Shown here in pieces: positions 13,041 through 23,485 of a stretch of DNA of 41,110 nt (the stretch's first letter is position 1; each line of letters starts with the position of its first letter). The notes under the pieces are model-generated. The model saw nothing but the letters and a program-made list of their open reading frames with translations, did not search any database and was not told the origin of the DNA. The stretch comes from Ignavibacteriaceae bacterium (GTDB lineage: Bacteria > Bacteroidota > Ignavibacteria > Ignavibacteriales > Ignavibacteriaceae). The position numbers were made by a program, and so were the translations under genes. The stretch is from NCBI GenBank assembly GCA_014879635.1, contig JACSRR010000174.1, forward strand, positions 1 through 41,110. Direction: 5' to 3'.

Positions 13041-16000
13041 TTATACCCCACTTTCATCAGTTTTATTACCATTAACATGTACTTTGTATATTGGTAAACT
13101 CACATAGAAAATTGTTCCGGAATTCTCTTTGCTTTCTGCCCAAATTCTTCCGCCATTCTTTTCAACCATATCTTTGGCTAAAATTAAACCAACTCCTGTG
13201 CCTTTCTCATTATTTGTACCGGGACGCGAGTGATGATTTTGAACATCAAAAAGTTTACTTAGTATTAACGGTGACATACCAACTCCTTCATCCCTGATTG
13301 ATAACTCAATATCATTTTCTCTAATGGTTGAATTTATAGTAATTTTATCACCTGTATGGCTGAATTTGATTGCATTCCCGATAATATTTTGTAAAACAGA
13401 AACAATCATATTATGATCGGCAAAAACAATTGTTGAAGATGATACAAAAAGTTCAACTGTTAATTTTTTTTGAAGCAGATTCTGTTTTAGAATTGTTAAA
13501 ACTTCATTGAGTGTATCATAAATTGAAAAACCGGTGGGCGAGAACTCAATTCGACCGGAAGTTAGTCGTGCCCAATGAAGAAATTTTTCAATTAATTTGT
13601 TGAGATTAGTACTAGATTCATTTATATTTATCAAGATTTCTTTAAACTCGTTTTCTTTGAGAGTTTGGTATTCTTGAATTAATATATCCGAATAAACAGA
13701 AATTGCGAAAATTGGATTTTTTAGGTCGTGTGATACAATTGTTAAGAAAAGGTCTTTATTTTTATTCAATTCGATCAACTGTTTTTCAGAAGTTTCTAGT
13801 ACAATATTCACATTACTTAATTCAACATTAATTGCTTCCAACTCAGATTTATGTTGCTCCAGTTCATAAGTTTTTGCCTCAAGCGCCCGGTTTGATAATT
13901 TGAGTTCATTTGTTCTGAGTTGAACCAAGTTTTCTAATTTTTCTTTCTCTTGTTGAATTGCATCAAGTCTTGCCCTGTACACAAATGCAATAATAAAAAG
14001 AATGAAAATTGCCGAAATTAGCTGAAACCACCAAGTTTTGTAAAAAGGGGGTAAAATATTTATAATTAGTGACGCCTCAACAAACTCATTCTTATTTGAT
14101 ACAAATGCCCTGACAAAGAACTCATATTTACCGGGTTCCAAGTTAGTATAAGAAGCAAAATTATTTAATCCTGACTCTTTCCATTCGGTGTCAAAGCCGT
14201 CCAATTTATAAATAAATCTTATTTGCGAAGAGTTTGAAAACAAAATTGCCGAATAATTAACGGTTACTCTTTTTGTTGACGGTGATAATTCAATAAATTT
14301 ATTTTCATCGTAAAAAATCCCTTCGTCTGTTGAAATTGAGACAATATTCATGTTTTGAACCCTCAAATTTTGAGGAATCAACGCCGGGTCAACAAATACA
14401 ACGCCATTAAGAGAAGGAAATGCAAGTCTTCCATCTTTTAATTTCAAACCTGAAGAAGTAAATCCGCCGTTAAACTCGTTGCTTAATAAGCCGTCATTTC
14501 TATTAAAACTAATTGAGGTAACAAAATCAGTTGACCCTGCAAAAAAACTTTTTAATTCGTTTTCATTAATGTAAAATAAGCCGTTATTGCATGTCATCCA
14601 GAGTCTTCCAAAATTATCCGGAATAATTGAAGAGATAATGTTGTCAAATAATCCGTTTTTTGTTGTTAGATTTTTGAATGAATTTCCGTCATAATAGAAT
14701 AAACCGTAACCATAAGTCCCTATCAAGTAAGTATTATCCTTAAACTCATGAATAGCTCTAACAATTTTAACATTAGTATTTTCATAAGAAAGGGGAATCA
14801 GGCTCATATCGGAGAGAATAAATTCAAATAAACCGGAAGCAGTTAAAACTAAGCATCTGTTTTTAGAATCAATAAAAAATCCTGCAACCGGGTTATCTAA
14901 ACCTGAATTTCCGGAAGTAATATTTTTAACGACTCCGTCTTTATAAATGCTCAAACCTCGAAGTGAACCAATTAGTAATTCTCCGCCGGGTAACTCTTGA
15001 AGGGATAAAATATCATTAGAAATTAACCCGTCTTTATTATCTATAGTTTTAATTACTTTGCCCGTAGGATCTAAAAATTTTAGCCCTACTCCCAAAGTTC
15101 CCAGATAAATTATTCCGGACTTGGAGTTTGCCAAAGCCCATTGGCAATGAATTTGAATATCTGATCCAAATTTACTAACTCGGTTACCGGTAATTTTTAG
15201 CAAATTGAAGCAACTAAATCCGGCGAGAACTGAGCCGTCAGCCAATTCCAGTAATGGATTAACTGTTGAATTAGTAGCGGTATTTAATCCGGTTACAACC
15301 TTAAATAGTTTTTTCGTGAACTTTTGAACGCCTGCGTTTGAGGTCCCTGTCCACATTATTCCTTCTTTGTCCATCAAAATTTTCAAAATATGAGTTGAAA
15401 GTAATCCATGTTCTGAACTTATTTTTAACGGAGCTTCAATATTTTTCTTGAATATAAACAAACCTTCTTCTGTAGAAACCCACAAGCTACTATCTTTATC
15501 AGATGAGATTGAATAAGCACGAGATTTTACATATTTAGTTGAACCATGAGGATATAATGAGCCATTCTTAAGAATATGTAACCCTTTATCCGTTTGAAGA
15601 TAGTCAACATTTCCTATTTGTGTGTGAAATTCAAAATTAAAATCAGTGTCAACTTTTTTTGTAATAGAATAATTTTTATCGAAAAATATTAATTGGTTCT
15701 TATTCTTGTTTTTGATTAGAATAAAAAACTCACCGGCAGATGTTATTGAGAAAGATAAAATTTGAGTATTATTGTCAGATCTATAAATTGTGTCAATCTG
15801 CTTATAATTTTCAATTTTGGATATAACGATACCTAAAGAAGGCACAAACATACATAAGTTATTATAGGAATCAAGAAGTATTCTACCTATAAACAACGAA
15901 TTATCAATTTGAGGAACGGAATAAAATCTATGATTTTTAAAGTAGAGAAGTTTACCGAACTCGGTTACTATCCAAATTCGACCATCATCACCAGCTACTA

Positions 16001-16316
16001 ATTGAGCGATTCTGTTTGAACCTAACTCAGGATAATCAATACTCTTAAAGATTTCGAATTTAATACCGTCAAACCTAACCAAGCCATCAGATGTGGCCAT
16101 CCAAATAAACCCGTCATCAGTTTGAACAAGATCACGAACAGTATTTTGAGGCAGGCCATTTTCAGAATTCCAATATGTAATAACATATTCAACATCAGAT
16201 TGAAGTGATTTTTCTGAAGTACTTTGAAAACTGTAATTAACAACAGATTGAGAGAGGGTGGTAGAAACGATTAAAAAAAAGATGAAAAAAAACTTATTGT
16301 AAATTGCGTACATCAT
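13041..16316 (-). CDS. Two-component regulator propeller / Y_Y_Y domain sensor histidine kinase
   Basis: Reg_prop-like repeats (ENGLPQNTVRDLVQTDDGFIWMATSDGLVRFDG, MWTGTSNAGVQKF), Y_Y_Y segment IRFIYKLDGFDTEWKE..LEPGKYEFFVRA, one TM, HisKA IVSHDLKNPIFAIS, HATPase GVGLILAKDMVEKNGGRIW. The listed 16319 start is TTG; ATG codons start at 16316 and 16313. Confidence 0.94.
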   Translation of the reverse strand: MMYAIYNKFFFIFFLIVSTTLSQSVVNYSFQSTSEKSLQSDVEYVITYWNSENGLPQNTVRDLVQTDDGFIWMATSDGLVRFDGIKFEIFKSIDYPELGSNRIAQLVAGDDGRIWIVTEFGKLLYFKNHRFYSVPQIDNSLFIGRILLDSYNNLCMFVPSLGIVISKIENYKQIDTIYRSDNNTQILSFSITSAGEFFILIKNKNKNQLIFFDKNYSITKKVDTDFNFEFHTQIGNVDYLQTDKGLHILKNGSLYPHGSTKYVKSRAYSISSDKDSSLWVSTEEGLFIFKKNIEAPLKISSEHGLLSTHILKILMDKEGIMWTGTSNAGVQKFTKKLFKVVTGLNTATNSTVNPLLELADGSVLAGFSCFNLLKITGNRVSKFGSDIQIHCQWALANSKSGIIYLGTLGVGLKFLDPTGKVIKTIDNKDGLISNDILSLQELPGGELLIGSLRGLSIYKDGVVKNITSGNSGLDNPVAGFFIDSKNRCLVLTASGLFEFILSDMSLIPLSYENTNVKIVRAIHEFKDNTYLIGTYGYGLFYYDGNSFKNLTTKNGLFDNIISSIIPDNFGRLWMTCNNGLFYINENELKSFFAGSTDFVTSISFNRNDGLLSNEFNGGFTSSGLKLKDGRLAFPSLNGVVFVDPALIPQNLRVQNMNIVSISTDEGIFYDENKFIELSPSTKRVTVNYSAILFSNSSQIRFIYKLDGFDTEWKESGLNNFASYTNLEPGKYEFFVRAFVSNKNEFVEASLIINILPPFYKTWWFQLISAIFILFIIAFVYRARLDAIQQEKEKLENLVQLRTNELKLSNRALEAKTYELEQHKSELEAINVELSNVNIVLETSEKQLIELNKNKDLFLTIVSHDLKNPIFAISVYSDILIQEYQTLKENEFKEILININESSTNLNKLIEKFLHWARLTSGRIEFSPTGFSIYDTLNEVLTILKQNLLQKKLTVELFVSSSTIVFADHNMIVSVLQNIIGNAIKFSHTGDKITINSTIRENDIELSIRDEGVGMSPLILSKLFDVQNHHSRPGTNNEKGTGVGLILAKDMVEKNGGRIWAESKENSGTIFYVSLPIYKVHVNGNKTDESGV

Positions 16317-19300
16317 CAACGGTAATTTTGATTAAGTCTTCATCTTTCAGATCAGATAAACTTAAAATCCGCTCTTCTTGGTTACTGATCGCCTTAAATA
16401 ATATATTTCTAACCGTTCTTGCATTACCAAAATTAATATCTCTGTTTTCGTAAAGATTTGTGAAAACATTAACCAATTCTTCAACAGCCGAATCATCAAC
16501 TTTGTAACCGCTTTTTTCTGCGATTACATTAGAAATTTCTAACATTTGTTCAGGTGTGTAATCTTCAAACATAAAGAAATTGGTGAAGCGGGAAGAAAGC
16601 CCGGGATTTGATTCAAGGAAATTTTGCATTTCGTTGGGGTACCCGGCAACAATTACAACTAAGTCATCTTTGAAATCTTCCATTCTTTTTAGCAGAGTAT
16701 CGATAGCCTCTTGACCAAAATCGTTTCCTCCGCGAGAAAGAGTATAAGCTTCATCGATAAAAAGAGTGCCCCCGAGAGCCTTTTGAATTATTTCATCAGT
16801 TTTTTGAGCAGTCTGTCCCTGATAACCTGCTACCAAGCCGGATCTATCTGTTTCAACAAGATGACCTTTACTTATCACTCCTAATTCTTTATAAACACTG
16901 CTAATTAACCGGGCAACCGTTGTTTTACCTGTTCCGGGGTTTCCGAGAAATACGGAATGAAGGCTTTTTCTAATAACCGTTAAACCTCTCTCTTCTCTGA
17001 GTTTAGCAATTTTGAGAGAACTAATCAGTTTTTCAACCGATTTTTTAACCTCGTCAAGTCCGGTTAACCGGTTTAATTCTTCTAAATGAGCATCGAGAAG
17101 ATTTTTGTCACCCTGAGTAATAGACGATTTTTTTGTAGCTTCTTTAGGAGCAATTTCCGGAATATCGGCAGGAATCACAATCTTTGCGTTATCGCTCAAT
17201 CTTTCATCAGCCGGAAGATCAACCAATCTTAAAAGGTGGTTTCTTGCTGCAGTTTCAACAATATTTCTAACAAAACGGGCGTTACTAAAAGTTTTATCGC
17301 GACCCCTGTATTTTTCATTATAATAGACGGTAAGTTTGGCTTTTGTATCTTCACCGAGAATAAGTTTTTTTTCTGTAAGCAAGTTTTCGGTAATTTGCAT
17401 TAATTCGGCAGGGGTGTAATCTTCAAAAAGAATAAACTTAGTAAAACGCGATTGAAGACCGGCGTTCGATTCTAAAAATCTTTCCATATCTTCAGTGTAC
17501 CCGGCGGCAATTACAATAAATTTACCTCTGTCATCTTCCATTCTTTTTAATAAAGTATCAATAGCTTCTTTACCAAAATCTGAACCGCCTGAATCACCCG
17601 ATTTCACCAAAGAGTAAGCTTCATCAATAAAGAGAGTACCACCAATTGCACTGTTAACTACTTCGGTAGTCTTTTCGGCAGTTTTACCGACAAAACTTGC
17701 TACTAAATTTTGCCTGTCCGTTTCAACCAAATGCCCTTTAGGAAGCAACCCAAGCGAGGCATAAATTTCACCCATAATTCTTGCAACTGTTGTTTTACCT
17801 GTTCCGGGACCACCGAGGAAAACGACATGGTCAGTAAATTTATTTTGAATATCTTGACCGGTTTCTGCATAGAACTTAGCAATTTTAACGAGTTCGTTGA
17901 TCTCTTTTTTAACAGTGCTCAATCCCATCAGAGAGTTGAGTCTTTTTAATGCTGAGTTCAGTTTATCTTCATCTATACCTGATCTGAACTTTTTGACTTC
18001 TTCTTGAGCAAAAACCTCTTGAATATCTTCAAAAGTAATTGTTGTAAGCATTATCTGGTTTCTTTGCGAGACAGGAAGCTTAAGGTACCTTTTACTTAAA
18101 GACATTTTAGCATCATCAAACAAATTTCTCACTAACCTGGCATTTCCAAAGGTTTTATCCCTCTTACGGTATAAAACGGTAAATTCTTTTTTCAAAAGCT
18201 CAGCTGCTTTTTCTTCCAACTTGTAATCTTCTTTTTCTGCCATACCCGTAAAAATTACGAGCATTTCATCAGGGGTATAATCTTCAAAATTAAAAGTGTG
18301 AGTGAATCTTGATTTCATACCCGGATTAGATTCTAAGAAATCGTTCATTTCATCGGGATAACCGGCAACAATAACAGCAAATTCACCCGATTTATCTTCC
18401 ATTCTTTTCATTAAGGTGTCAATAGCTTCTTGACCGAAGTCATTAGCTTGTCCTTTTTTAACAAGTGTATATGCTTCGTCAATAAAAAGCAATCCACCCA
18501 TTGCGTCTTCAATAAGTTTTTCGGTTTTTTGAGCGGTTTCACCCACATACTGCCCAACCATGGCTGAACGGTCGCACTCAATTATATGTCCACCCGAAAG
18601 GACACCCATACCTTTAAATATACTCCCGAGTACACGGGCAACTGAAGTTTTACCTGTTCCGGGATTTCCGAGAAATACTGAGTTAACTGAAAGGTTATCT
18701 TTAGTTTTAAGACCTAATTTTTTTCTTTCGGCAATAAAATTCAAATAGTCAACAAAGTCACGCATAGTTTGTTTTACTGAGTTCAAACCAGTAAAACTGT
18801 CAAGTTCTTTGAATATTTCGTCAACCGATGCTTTATCAGCCATTTGGCTTTCAGAACTAAGGATATTTTCTATATCAGTTATATCAAAGTCTTCCAAATC
18901 ATAAATAACAGATCTTCCTATTAAAAACCATTTTGTGCAGACTAATTCGCTAAACAAATAAATTTCGACTCTAGCCTGAGAGGCAAACCAGAATCCCGGC
19001 TGATTAGTACCCCAACTTTGAAAAATGGTAACAAATTTATTATCGGGAGAAAAATTTTCTTCTATATCGTATCTACCTGCTTCAATATCATTTTGATACC
19101 AAATTGCATATCCCTCTACAACCGAGAAGTTTTTGCCGAAAAACGGGTTTAACACAATAATTTCAACACCGATAAATGTAGCGGATTGCTCGCTAAATTG
19201 GTGAATATAGAGTTTTCTTCCACCTCCGGAATTTTCTTTAAGGTCAAAGGTACGGGCATTAAAAACTCTAAATTTACTTGCCTTAACTGCTTCAAAATCG

Positions 19301-20307
19301 GTTCTTCTTGAAGTTGTTTTAGAAAAAGAATCTAATGAAGCAACTCCTTGTGCAGGGGAAGCAGGTTTTTCAGTTACAACGGGAAAGCTATTATTTGATT
19401 CGGTTTCAGAATCATCATCAAATGCGCTTAAGTCAATTTTTTGAAAAGGAGATTTACTGATGCCTGAAATTGGAGCACCCCCATCATTAGGTTTAGAAAC
19501 AGGGGAGTTTTCAGGTGAAGTTGATCCGCTATTTAATTTTTTTAATTCGGAATATAATTCAATAAATCTAAGGTCATCTTTGAAAATATCTTCGATATAA
19601 TTTGCAAGCAGGAGCGCCTTCCGGTAATTAAATTGCCCCTTTAACGCAAAAACTTTCAATAATTTAGCTTCGTTATGCTGATCTGATTTACTGCTATCGG
19701 CTATAATTTTATCACATGCACATTGAATATACCAGTACTCTTTATAAGTTAGGGCTTCCTTAGCCTTCTCTAATAGATTAACTTCTGATGTGATCAACTT
19801 ATTTAAGAATGTGCTCTTTTGAACAGTGAGAGACTTTATTAACTCTCTCAGCCGGTTTCGTTCCTTATTAAGATTATTATCAATTTTGAGGGCGGATTCC
19901 AAACACTTATTAGCTTCGGGAATATTATTATTCACCGTAAAACACTTGGCTTTAAGTTCAAAGGCGGTGTGTAGGTTATCGGCGCAATTTGTAAGAATAA
20001 AATCAATATCAATTAATGCGCTTGCAATCAATCCTGTAGAAAAAAGGATTTGAGCTCTATTAAGCCGGTTTAATGATGAGTATTCATTAACTTTTATTGC
20101 AATATCTGCATATTCAAGAGCCAATTCGGGTTTACCGGAAGCTAGCAAAACAGAGGAATATAACCTCAATATTTTTTCATCATTCAGCTGAGAATCAATT
20201 ATTTTCTCCAATAATTCAGCGGCTTCATGGCTATTGCCTGCCGAGAATAATTGAGTTGCCTGTGAAAAAGTTTCTTGAATATTTAACTTAACCGGATTTC
20301 CTGACAT
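16294..20307 (-). CDS. TPR plus triple CbxX/CfxQ (SpoVK-like) AAA+ ATPase
   Basis: N-terminal TPR-like helices, beta-rich middle region, then three AAA+ modules: Walker A GNPGTGKT / GGPGTGKT / GNPGTGKT, Walker B LLFIDEAYTL / TLFIDEAYSL / TLFIDEAYTL, and SRF(T) arginine-finger-like motifs in each. Confidence 0.93.
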   Translation of the reverse strand: MSGNPVKLNIQETFSQATQLFSAGNSHEAAELLEKIIDSQLNDEKILRLYSSVLLASGKPELALEYADIAIKVNEYSSLNRLNRAQILFSTGLIASALIDIDFILTNCADNLHTAFELKAKCFTVNNNIPEANKCLESALKIDNNLNKERNRLRELIKSLTVQKSTFLNKLITSEVNLLEKAKEALTYKEYWYIQCACDKIIADSSKSDQHNEAKLLKVFALKGQFNYRKALLLANYIEDIFKDDLRFIELYSELKKLNSGSTSPENSPVSKPNDGGAPISGISKSPFQKIDLSAFDDDSETESNNSFPVVTEKPASPAQGVASLDSFSKTTSRRTDFEAVKASKFRVFNARTFDLKENSGGGRKLYIHQFSEQSATFIGVEIIVLNPFFGKNFSVVEGYAIWYQNDIEAGRYDIEENFSPDNKFVTIFQSWGTNQPGFWFASQARVEIYLFSELVCTKWFLIGRSVIYDLEDFDITDIENILSSESQMADKASVDEIFKELDSFTGLNSVKQTMRDFVDYLNFIAERKKLGLKTKDNLSVNSVFLGNPGTGKTSVARVLGSIFKGMGVLSGGHIIECDRSAMVGQYVGETAQKTEKLIEDAMGGLLFIDEAYTLVKKGQANDFGQEAIDTLMKRMEDKSGEFAVIVAGYPDEMNDFLESNPGMKSRFTHTFNFEDYTPDEMLVIFTGMAEKEDYKLEEKAAELLKKEFTVLYRKRDKTFGNARLVRNLFDDAKMSLSKRYLKLPVSQRNQIMLTTITFEDIQEVFAQEEVKKFRSGIDEDKLNSALKRLNSLMGLSTVKKEINELVKIAKFYAETGQDIQNKFTDHVVFLGGPGTGKTTVARIMGEIYASLGLLPKGHLVETDRQNLVASFVGKTAEKTTEVVNSAIGGTLFIDEAYSLVKSGDSGGSDFGKEAIDTLLKRMEDDRGKFIVIAAGYTEDMERFLESNAGLQSRFTKFILFEDYTPAELMQITENLLTEKKLILGEDTKAKLTVYYNEKYRGRDKTFSNARFVRNIVETAARNHLLRLVDLPADERLSDNAKIVIPADIPEIAPKEATKKSSITQGDKNLLDAHLEELNRLTGLDEVKKSVEKLISSLKIAKLREERGLTVIRKSLHSVFLGNPGTGKTTVARLISSVYKELGVISKGHLVETDRSGLVAGYQGQTAQKTDEIIQKALGGTLFIDEAYTLSRGGNDFGQEAIDTLLKRMEDFKDDLVVIVAGYPNEMQNFLESNPGLSSRFTNFFMFEDYTPEQMLEISNVIAEKSGYKVDDSAVEELVNVFTNLYENRDINFGNARTVRNILFKAISNQEERILSLSDLKDEDLIKITVDDVRNLQ

Positions 20308-20360: not shown

Positions 20361-20397
20361 CCTTAAAAAAAAAGCGATGTTCAATGAACATCGCTTT
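20361..20397 (-). terminator. Intrinsic terminator downstream of groEL
   Basis: On the minus strand, AAAGCGATGTTC-ATT-GAACATCGCTTT is followed by TTTTTTAAGG. Confidence 0.85.
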
Positions 20398-20421: not shown

Positions 20422-22068
<1,647 letters not shown>

Positions 22069-22073
22069 TTAAA

Positions 22074-22373
22074 TTATTTATTAATAATAGCGAAAATATC
22101 GCTTTCACGCATGATCAAATACTCTGTTCCGTCAACGGTAACTTCAGTTCCTGAATATTTACCATAAAGAACTTTATCGCCAACTTTAACGGTCATTGAT
22201 ACAGTTTTACCGTCATCGGTTGATTTACCGGGACCTGCAGCAACAACAGTACCTTCAATTGGTTTTTCTTTTGCGGTATCGGGTAAGAAAAGACCGCTTT
22301 TTGTTTTTTCCTGAGCTTCCTCAGGTTTTACGATTATTCTATCACTTAATGGTGACAAATTAATTTGAGACAT
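22074..22373 (-). CDS. groS: Co-chaperonin GroES
   Basis: [31 protein letters not shown]...[14 protein letters not shown]...[13 protein letters not shown]. Confidence 0.99.
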
Positions 22374-22410: not shown

Positions 22411-22437
22411 TTAGCACTCAAAAATTGCGAGTGCTAA
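22411..22437 (-). promoter_or_regulatory. CIRCE operator (HrcA binding site) upstream of groES
   Basis: Exact TTAGCACTC-N9-GAGTGCTAA inverted repeat 38 bp upstream of the groES start. Confidence 0.97.
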
Positions 22438-22614
22438 TTTAAATGTTTTTTTTCAACTATGCAAGTTTTTTGCAGTATTAATGATTTTTTAACATTAAAA
22501 TATCATACCTGATTGGCTTATTGATTTTACTGATAAGACTTTGTCTTGTACTAAATATGGTTGTCACCAATCTGGAAAGAATTTTCTAAGTGGATAAAAG
22601 TAGCAAATTCAATA

Positions 22615-23042
22615 TTTGACTCCGGAGGTGTCACATATTAATTAAGATTTTAACCACCGAGCACACCGAGCACGCAGAGAGGAAAAGTTCTTGGATCGTA
22701 GTCCCGACCTGGTCGGAATTTCTACTCAATACCCACTGCAAGCGTAGCGAACTACCCACTAACTTTATTCACCACTAAGAGCACACAGAGGGGAAATGTG
22801 AAAAATACATTTTACTTTTTGATGCCGGAGGTGTCATATATTTGTAGAAAAAAAGAAAATTAGATTTGTTCGACCCCGGAGGCGGTCGCATATAATTGGA
22901 AAAATTATTTAGTGAGTAGACAAATTTAGTGTGTTGTGGAAGATTTAGTGGATAGAAAATTCAAATTATGACGCTGAAGGCGTCAAATGTTTGTAGAAAA
23001 TAGAATAATCTGATTTATGCGACACTGAAGGAGGTCGCATGT
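22615..23042. repeat. Cluster of five short imperfect hairpins (GACGCC-type and CGACC-type) including two composite units
   Basis: gactccggaggtgtc (22618-22632), gatgccggaggtgtc (22821-22835), cgaccccggaggcggtcg (22871-22888), gacgctgaaggcgtc (22970-22984), gcgacactgaaggaggtcgc (23019-23038). Confidence 0.8.
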
Positions 23043-23225
23043 TAAATTTATTCAAATTGATATAAATCTTAAGAATAATTTACTGTCCGGTCATTACGAT
23101 TTAACCTAATCCCGACCGGGTCGGGGCTAAGCACAATTTTTTAACCTAGAACACCCGCACCCCGAACCCCCAAACTTTCTCCTCTGCGTTCTCTGTTGGC
23201 TCTGCGGTTAGTAGATTAGTGGGTG
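22650..23225. repeat. Short ACCACCGAG/CACAGAG-type repeats in both orientations
   Basis: aaccaccgagcacaccgagcacgcagagaggaaaa (22652-22686), caccactaagagcacacagaggggaaa (22770-22796), and an inverted relative ctttctcctctgcgttctctgttggctctgcggttag (23176-23212). Confidence 0.6.
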
Positions 23226-23485
23226 AAGCGAAACGCATTTGACAAAAATGCAGGGTTGAGCTTGTGTGTTGCTCCAAAAGTATAGCGAGAATATAAATAA
23301 CTTTGAATTCCGCTCCCGTTCGGGTCGGAATCAAACCCCGAAACCCAAACATTTTATGTCGCTGATAAATCCAGTAATCTAATGTAGTAGCTTAAGCAGT
23401 AAACCTAAAGATAATAAGCCTCTTTAATATTAGACTAATTTCCACTATATTTATCTTTCAACTTTTTAAAAATAGGAATTTATTA

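Follow-up and report, generated by a model that had tools for sequence, protein, structure and literature searches.

The window, a 41,110-nucleotide stretch of contig JACSRR010000174.1 from an Ignavibacteriaceae bacterium, encodes a genuine protein of a known AAA+ clade, conserved but as yet uncharacterised, that carries three AAA+ modules (M1, M2 and M3) one after another in a single chain. The protein is most likely a dedicated remodelase of other proteins, with a TPR/beta region as its substrate-selecting front end. Taken as a whole, the best explanation is a SpoVK/CbbX/EccA-clade remodelase with a client-selecting front end and homotypic tiers, a reading that we consider on balance probable. 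Literature and database searches found no characterised homologue of the same architecture, and publications on tandem CbbX/CfxQ proteins yielded no characterised triple-module member.

The gene is an uninterrupted open reading frame that begins with ATG and contains neither a stop nor a frameshift (Table 1). Pfam analysis of the whole protein returned three AAA and three AAA_lid_6 matches, and at E-values of 1.7e-52 and 7.9e-42 chance similarity is no concern; the three modules share 44–52% mutual identity. The TPR signal in Pfam is weak, TPR_14 alone exceeding its cut-off, and only when the N-terminus was scanned by itself. An AlphaFold model of the N-terminus, computed with 62 relatives (mean pLDDT 85), predicts a confident helical solenoid, then a linker, then a beta-sandwich. 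Foldseek matched the solenoid to TPR proteins, and the beta-sandwich (hereafter BETA) showed a weaker resemblance to UNC119 (TM about 0.45 to the target). An UNC119-like reading of BETA is a lead only, and the lipid binding it might imply has no other support; Pfam and PDB profile and sequence searches with this domain gave nothing significant. The preliminary description, made by inspection of the sequence, had placed a TPR domain and an extra beta-rich region ahead of three modules, an order that Pfam domain annotation and AlphaFold both confirm.

Table 1. Positions of the AAA+ gene, its domains and motifs, and its upstream neighbours in the window
Feature	Coordinates	Strand	Remarks
Whole gene, TPR - beta-sandwich - M1 - M2 - M3	16294..20307	-	1337 aa
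TPR-like helical solenoid, residues 10-261	19525..20280	-	15 helices; AlphaFold pLDDT mostly 90+, Foldseek, TPR_14
Disordered linker, residues 264-332	19312..19518	-	AlphaFold pLDDT <50
Beta-sandwich domain (BETA), residues 338-464	18916..19296	-	AlphaFold; no Pfam family
AAA+ module M1 and lid, residues 492-769	18001..18834	-	
AAA+ module M2 and lid, residues 777-1053	17149..17979	-	
AAA+ module M3 and lid, residues 1064-1336	16300..17118	-	Repeatedly lost in relatives
Walker A of M1, GNPGTGKT	18646..18669	-	
Walker A of M2, GGPGTGKT	17791..17814	-	
Walker A of M3, GNPGTGKT	16921..16944	-	
Walker B of M1, FIDEAY	18469..18486	-	Residue 608
Walker B of M2, FIDEAY	17614..17631	-	Residue 893
Walker B of M3, FIDEAY	16744..16761	-	Residue 1183
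SRF of M1	18304..18312	-	Residue 666; arginine finger R667
SRF of M2	17443..17451	-	Residue 953; arginine finger R954
SRF of M3	16585..16593	-	Residue 1239; arginine finger R1240
Aromatic pore-loop residue of M1, Y587	18547..18549	-	Y/F in 81/81 relatives
Aromatic pore-loop residue of M2, F872	17692..17694	-	Y/F in 67/81, else H, once N
Aromatic pore-loop residue of M3, Y1162	16822..16824	-	Y/F in 55/56 live and 18/25 dead M3
groEL	20422-22053	-	Upstream neighbour
groES	22074-22373	-	Upstream neighbour
Strong intrinsic terminator between groEL and the AAA+ gene	20371..20397	-	12-pair stem, then T run

Every catalytic residue is present three times in the window protein. The Walker A sites lie exactly where they had been placed at first inspection, each accompanied by a FIDEAY Walker B and an SRF motif, and the original assignment to the CbbX/SpoVK/EccA family is upheld by clade signatures in all three modules. 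These signatures are a sensor-1 GY motif, an SRH asparagine and a sensor-2 arginine (PMC10659427). Indeed, M1, M2 and M3 each carry the sensor-1 GY tyrosine, an asparagine just ahead of the first arginine finger (SNPG/SNAG...SRF) and a second arginine finger at sensor-2 (NAR-VRN, residues 722, 1009 and 1295). The Walker A-to-Walker A spacing between modules is highly constant, at 284–286 and 281–293 residues. The aromatic residue of the pore loop is the expected grip on a threaded polypeptide, and its conservation in the alignment of relatives would suit a threading or pulling machine.

In a first survey covering the genome of origin and 59 relatives, with orthologues counted by hand, 50 of the 60 genomes in and around Ignavibacteriales carried a three-module orthologue, some of these being cut by contig ends. 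When 297 genomes sampled evenly across the phylum were examined, the complete arrangement was seen only in Ignavibacteriales, and phage and plasmid collections held no full-length relative. The named relatives come from metagenome-assembled genomes (MAGs) of Ignavibacteriaceae, Melioribacteraceae and other Ignavibacteriales, together with a Stygiobacter electus genome that is not marked as a MAG. Other Bacteroidota families encode simpler proteins of the form BETA-BETA-M1-M2 (870–897 aa) or BETA-BETA-M (598 aa). Among relatives, the beta domain is followed by one, two or three modules, a range to be expected if tiers can be gained or lost. BETA is not exclusive to the motor, since it also occurs in tandem in proteins that lack an AAA+ module (278 and 661 aa, with apparent signal peptides; L167:4526-5362 and L169:3613-5598). 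A further family, found in Ignavibacteria and Spirochaetes (L107-L112; for example, L110:156-5189), combines one degenerate N-terminal module with three, four or five intact CbbX-type modules, and some of its members have a zinc-ribbon-like N-terminus.

The preliminary description had also raised internal duplication as a possible source of the modules. When each module was treated as a separate sequence in a tree, M1, M2 and M3 of the order fell into one group each (support 98, 71 and 100, respectively). In the two-module proteins, the first modules form one group adjoining M1 and the second modules one group adjoining M2, although some of these joins have weak support and EccA1 and CbbX are long branches. 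This pattern points to one origin for each module and thus to a triplication that predates the order. The BETA-M1-M2 core appears to be common to a wider set than the order, and the TPR region and M3 may be either additions in Ignavibacteriales or losses elsewhere, as the module tree fits either course.

Module decay was followed in 81 distinct full-length relatives, the window protein included. All six key residues (KTDERR) are present in M1 of 80 and M2 of 79 proteins; the figure for M3 is 56. The dead modules comprise one M1 (L031), two M2 (L125 and L126) and 25 M3, the last having lost both Walker B and arginine finger. The Stygiobacter electus protein (L094) is among those with a dead M3. 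Counting proteins that retain both motifs of a module, Walker B alone, the finger alone or neither gave 80/0/0/1 for M1, 79/0/0/2 for M2 and 56/0/0/25 for M3; thus, in none of the 81 relatives does a module with an intact Walker B lack its own finger. In the proteins without an M3 Walker B, the finger of M1 is retained in 25/25 and that of M2 in 24/25, the lone exception being L126, in which the Walker B of M2 is itself dead. When M3 deaths were placed on a tree of M1+M2, the best tree needed seven changes, at least four of them forced by well-supported branches, and a single origin was rejected (AU test, p about 1e-4, for a group set by the trait and not by a tree). A sign test on same-module pairing gave p = 0.125, the four to seven independent M3 events being too few for significance. 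In the M3-dead clade, the mean identity of M3 is 57.6%, against 72–74% for M1 and M2; where M3 is live, it is conserved more strongly (68–70% identity) than M1 or M2. The early impression of three catalytically intact modules thus holds for the window protein and its close relatives, whereas M3 is inactive in 25 of the 81.

In AAA+ rings, the arginine finger comes from the neighbouring domain. The modules of dynein and Rea1 share one ring, and the finger is therefore supplied by the next module of the chain: AAA2 serves the AAA1 site in dynein (PMC4879348), and AAA5 serves AAA4 in Rea1 (PMC6286127). In a mixed ring of this kind, each finger works on the site of some other module. Death of one site would then be expected to release another module's finger from constraint, and losses should be staggered. 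Homotypic pairing, by comparison, is expected to produce what the relatives display, namely, joint loss of a Walker B and its own finger with cross-module fingers kept. The simplest reading suggested by this pattern is that each module receives the finger for its ATP site from its own counterpart in an adjacent chain. As counterpoints, constraints on folding could make a whole module decay together, and a structural role could explain why fingers are retained. AlphaFold modelling of M1-M3 (62-sequence alignment) gave well-predicted modules (pLDDT 88) with no defined packing (pTM 0.42), and overlays on the two-tier machines Cdc48 and Rix7 had an rmsd of about 15 A or more.

Under the explanation that we prefer, the protein would be a SpoVK/CbbX/EccA-clade remodelase driven by ATP. 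Its TPR solenoid and beta-sandwich, connected by a flexible linker, would pick a specific client, a front-end role that is plausible for this part of the chain, and the three AAA+ modules in series would then pull on that client. M1 would pair with M1, M2 with M2 and M3 with M3 of adjacent chains, such that six chains would stack as three rings around one channel lined by the aromatic pore loops. M1 and M2 would be the essential motors, and M3 may be an added tier, catalytically optional, which was switched off several times and kept as a folded part. In its complete form, as a triple-decker of three stacked homotypic rings built from one 150-kDa chain, with client selection by the TPR/beta region and a third ring silenced several times independently, this proposal is tentative, and we hold it to be somewhat short of probable.

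Homotypic contacts might also exist without a closed three-tier stack; for example, M1 and M2 could form rings while M3 acts as a regulatory or docking lobe with hydrolysis limited to certain lineages. M3 is the sole module to be lost repeatedly, yet it is kept as a recognisable domain, and both this history and the lack of defined packing in the AlphaFold model would agree with such a lobe. A live M3, however, is better conserved than either M1 or M2 and has all catalytic residues as well as the pore-loop aromatic, and we regard this arrangement as unlikely.

The preliminary description had instead suggested that two chains could build a six-module ring. Such a ring (M1-M2-M3-M1-M2-M3) would resemble those of dynein and Rea1, which provide precedents for in-plane tandem modules (PMC4879348; PMC6286127); moreover, the module number of three divides six, and the very constant inter-module spacing would be in keeping with it. 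The proposal is disfavoured by the same-module losses of Walker B and finger in the 81 relatives, where cross-module fingers were kept. With M2 serving the M1 site and M3 serving that of M2, relaxation would be expected in the Walker motifs of M2, since the M3 finger is gone in 25/25 dead cases, and in the M1 finger, since the M3 site is lost; neither is relaxed. In addition, the zinc-ribbon family has four to six modules, numbers that mostly do not divide six. A two-chain ring is thus distinctly improbable.

The gene lies downstream of groES and groEL on the same strand. A perfect CIRCE inverted repeat at 22411-22437, upstream of groES, implies HrcA control, and a long non-coding stretch farther upstream of groES (22500-23450) includes a number of short, GC-rich repeats similar to 'cgacc..ggtcg' and 'gacacctccgg.gtc'. 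Upstream sequence could be read in 74 relatives; 16 of these, drawn from both sides of the tree, have groEL linked to the gene, mostly 113–300 bp upstream on the same strand. This recurrence would favour a protein that assists GroEL as a co-chaperone and is expressed together with groESL under heat-shock control. The operon idea is, however, weakened by a strong terminator in the gap between groEL and the AAA+ gene at 15 of the 16 linked loci, that is, in the window and at 14 of the 15 others; in the remaining locus, L013, the gene is predicted to start within the groEL match, leaving no gap to test. Furthermore, CIRCE control of groES is assigned by position only, and many relatives are unlinked and adjoin ABC exporter or SiaB/SiaC-type genes instead. 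A GroEL co-chaperone is therefore a poor prospect.

Those other neighbours are themselves recurrent. At 15 loci (L065, L072, L080 and 12 others), mostly from Melioribacteraceae, an ABC ATPase and an ABC_tran_2 membrane protein follow on the same strand. At five further loci (L062, L067, L068, L077 and L082), the gene belongs to a paralogous subfamily of the triple-module protein and stands behind SiaC, a DUF6272 (SiaB-like) protein, a PP2C-type response regulator as well as an 85-aa orphan; this setting suggests a link to partner-switch signalling. Downstream of the gene in the window, a two-component regulator-propeller histidine kinase (13041-16319) overlaps its 3' end by about 20 bases, which may mean that both genes share a transcript. 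A few relatives have a similar kinase after the AAA+ gene. With respect to a defence role, PADLOC gave generic AAA matches only. The neighbourhood survey thus yielded recurrent groEL, ABC or SiaC-type neighbours but no constant one, and the client is therefore probably encoded elsewhere in the genome.

The best structure match, both by sequence and by fold, is CbbX. The whole protein exceeds three mutually exclusive NCBIfam equivalog cut-offs (SpoVK, 802 against 423; EccA, 711 against 467; CbbX, 635 against 459) because the scores of its three modules are added; passing these cut-offs is an artefact of that sum, which is also a likely source of wrong database names. Although these scores would favour a protein doing the same job as CbbX in Rubisco activation, EccA in type VII secretion or SpoVK in sporulation, such direct equivalence is hardly credible: single modules score 259–298 bits (best 297.6) and fall below the SpoVK cut-off of 422.95, the 94%-complete genome of origin contains no match to the Rubisco large subunit (PF00016) or, in an ESX search limited to this family, to WXG100, and the clade is defined by variable N-termini, of which the one found here fits none of the three.

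As far as is known, members of the CbbX/SpoVK/EccA clade are narrow-client chaperones whose clients are mostly unknown. The natural on/off variants of one module make the role of each motor tier directly testable, and the same-module loss pattern provides a means, from sequence only, of telling stacked from in-plane tandem AAA+ proteins. To our knowledge, the tandem AAA+ stacks that have been solved have two tiers; a three-tier stack, if true, would add a new arrangement to those of AAA+ unfoldases.

Among known systems, CbbX (PDB 3syk, 3syl and 3zuh) shares the CbbX-type AAA+ domain and lid and the same aromatic pore-loop motif, but it is a single module of about 300 aa without a TPR/beta region, against 1337 aa and three modules here. 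EccA of type VII secretion (PDB 9lur) combines a TPR N-terminus with an AAA+ module of the same kind; it has one module, whereas a beta-sandwich and two further modules are added here. SpoVK, the dedicated MurG chaperone of spore formers, belongs to the same higher-order clade, with the same signatures, and offers a precedent for a narrow-client chaperone, although it has one module and a different, short N-terminal domain and is restricted to sporulating Firmicutes (PMC10659427). The BETA-BETA-M1-M2 proteins (L127-L131) have the same beta domain and orthologous M1 and M2 modules but differ in carrying two beta domains and in lacking both the TPR region and M3. Dynein and Rea1/midasin also have multiple AAA+ modules per chain; theirs, however, share one ring and take the finger from the next module, which the loss pattern described here argues against. 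Type II double-ring AAA+ proteins (Cdc48/p97, Rix7, Drg1 and ClpA) likewise carry tandem modules in one chain; each of their rings is homotypic, and one tier can be inactive. They have two tiers and belong to other AAA+ subfamilies, whereas the present protein has three tandem modules in a proposed stack.
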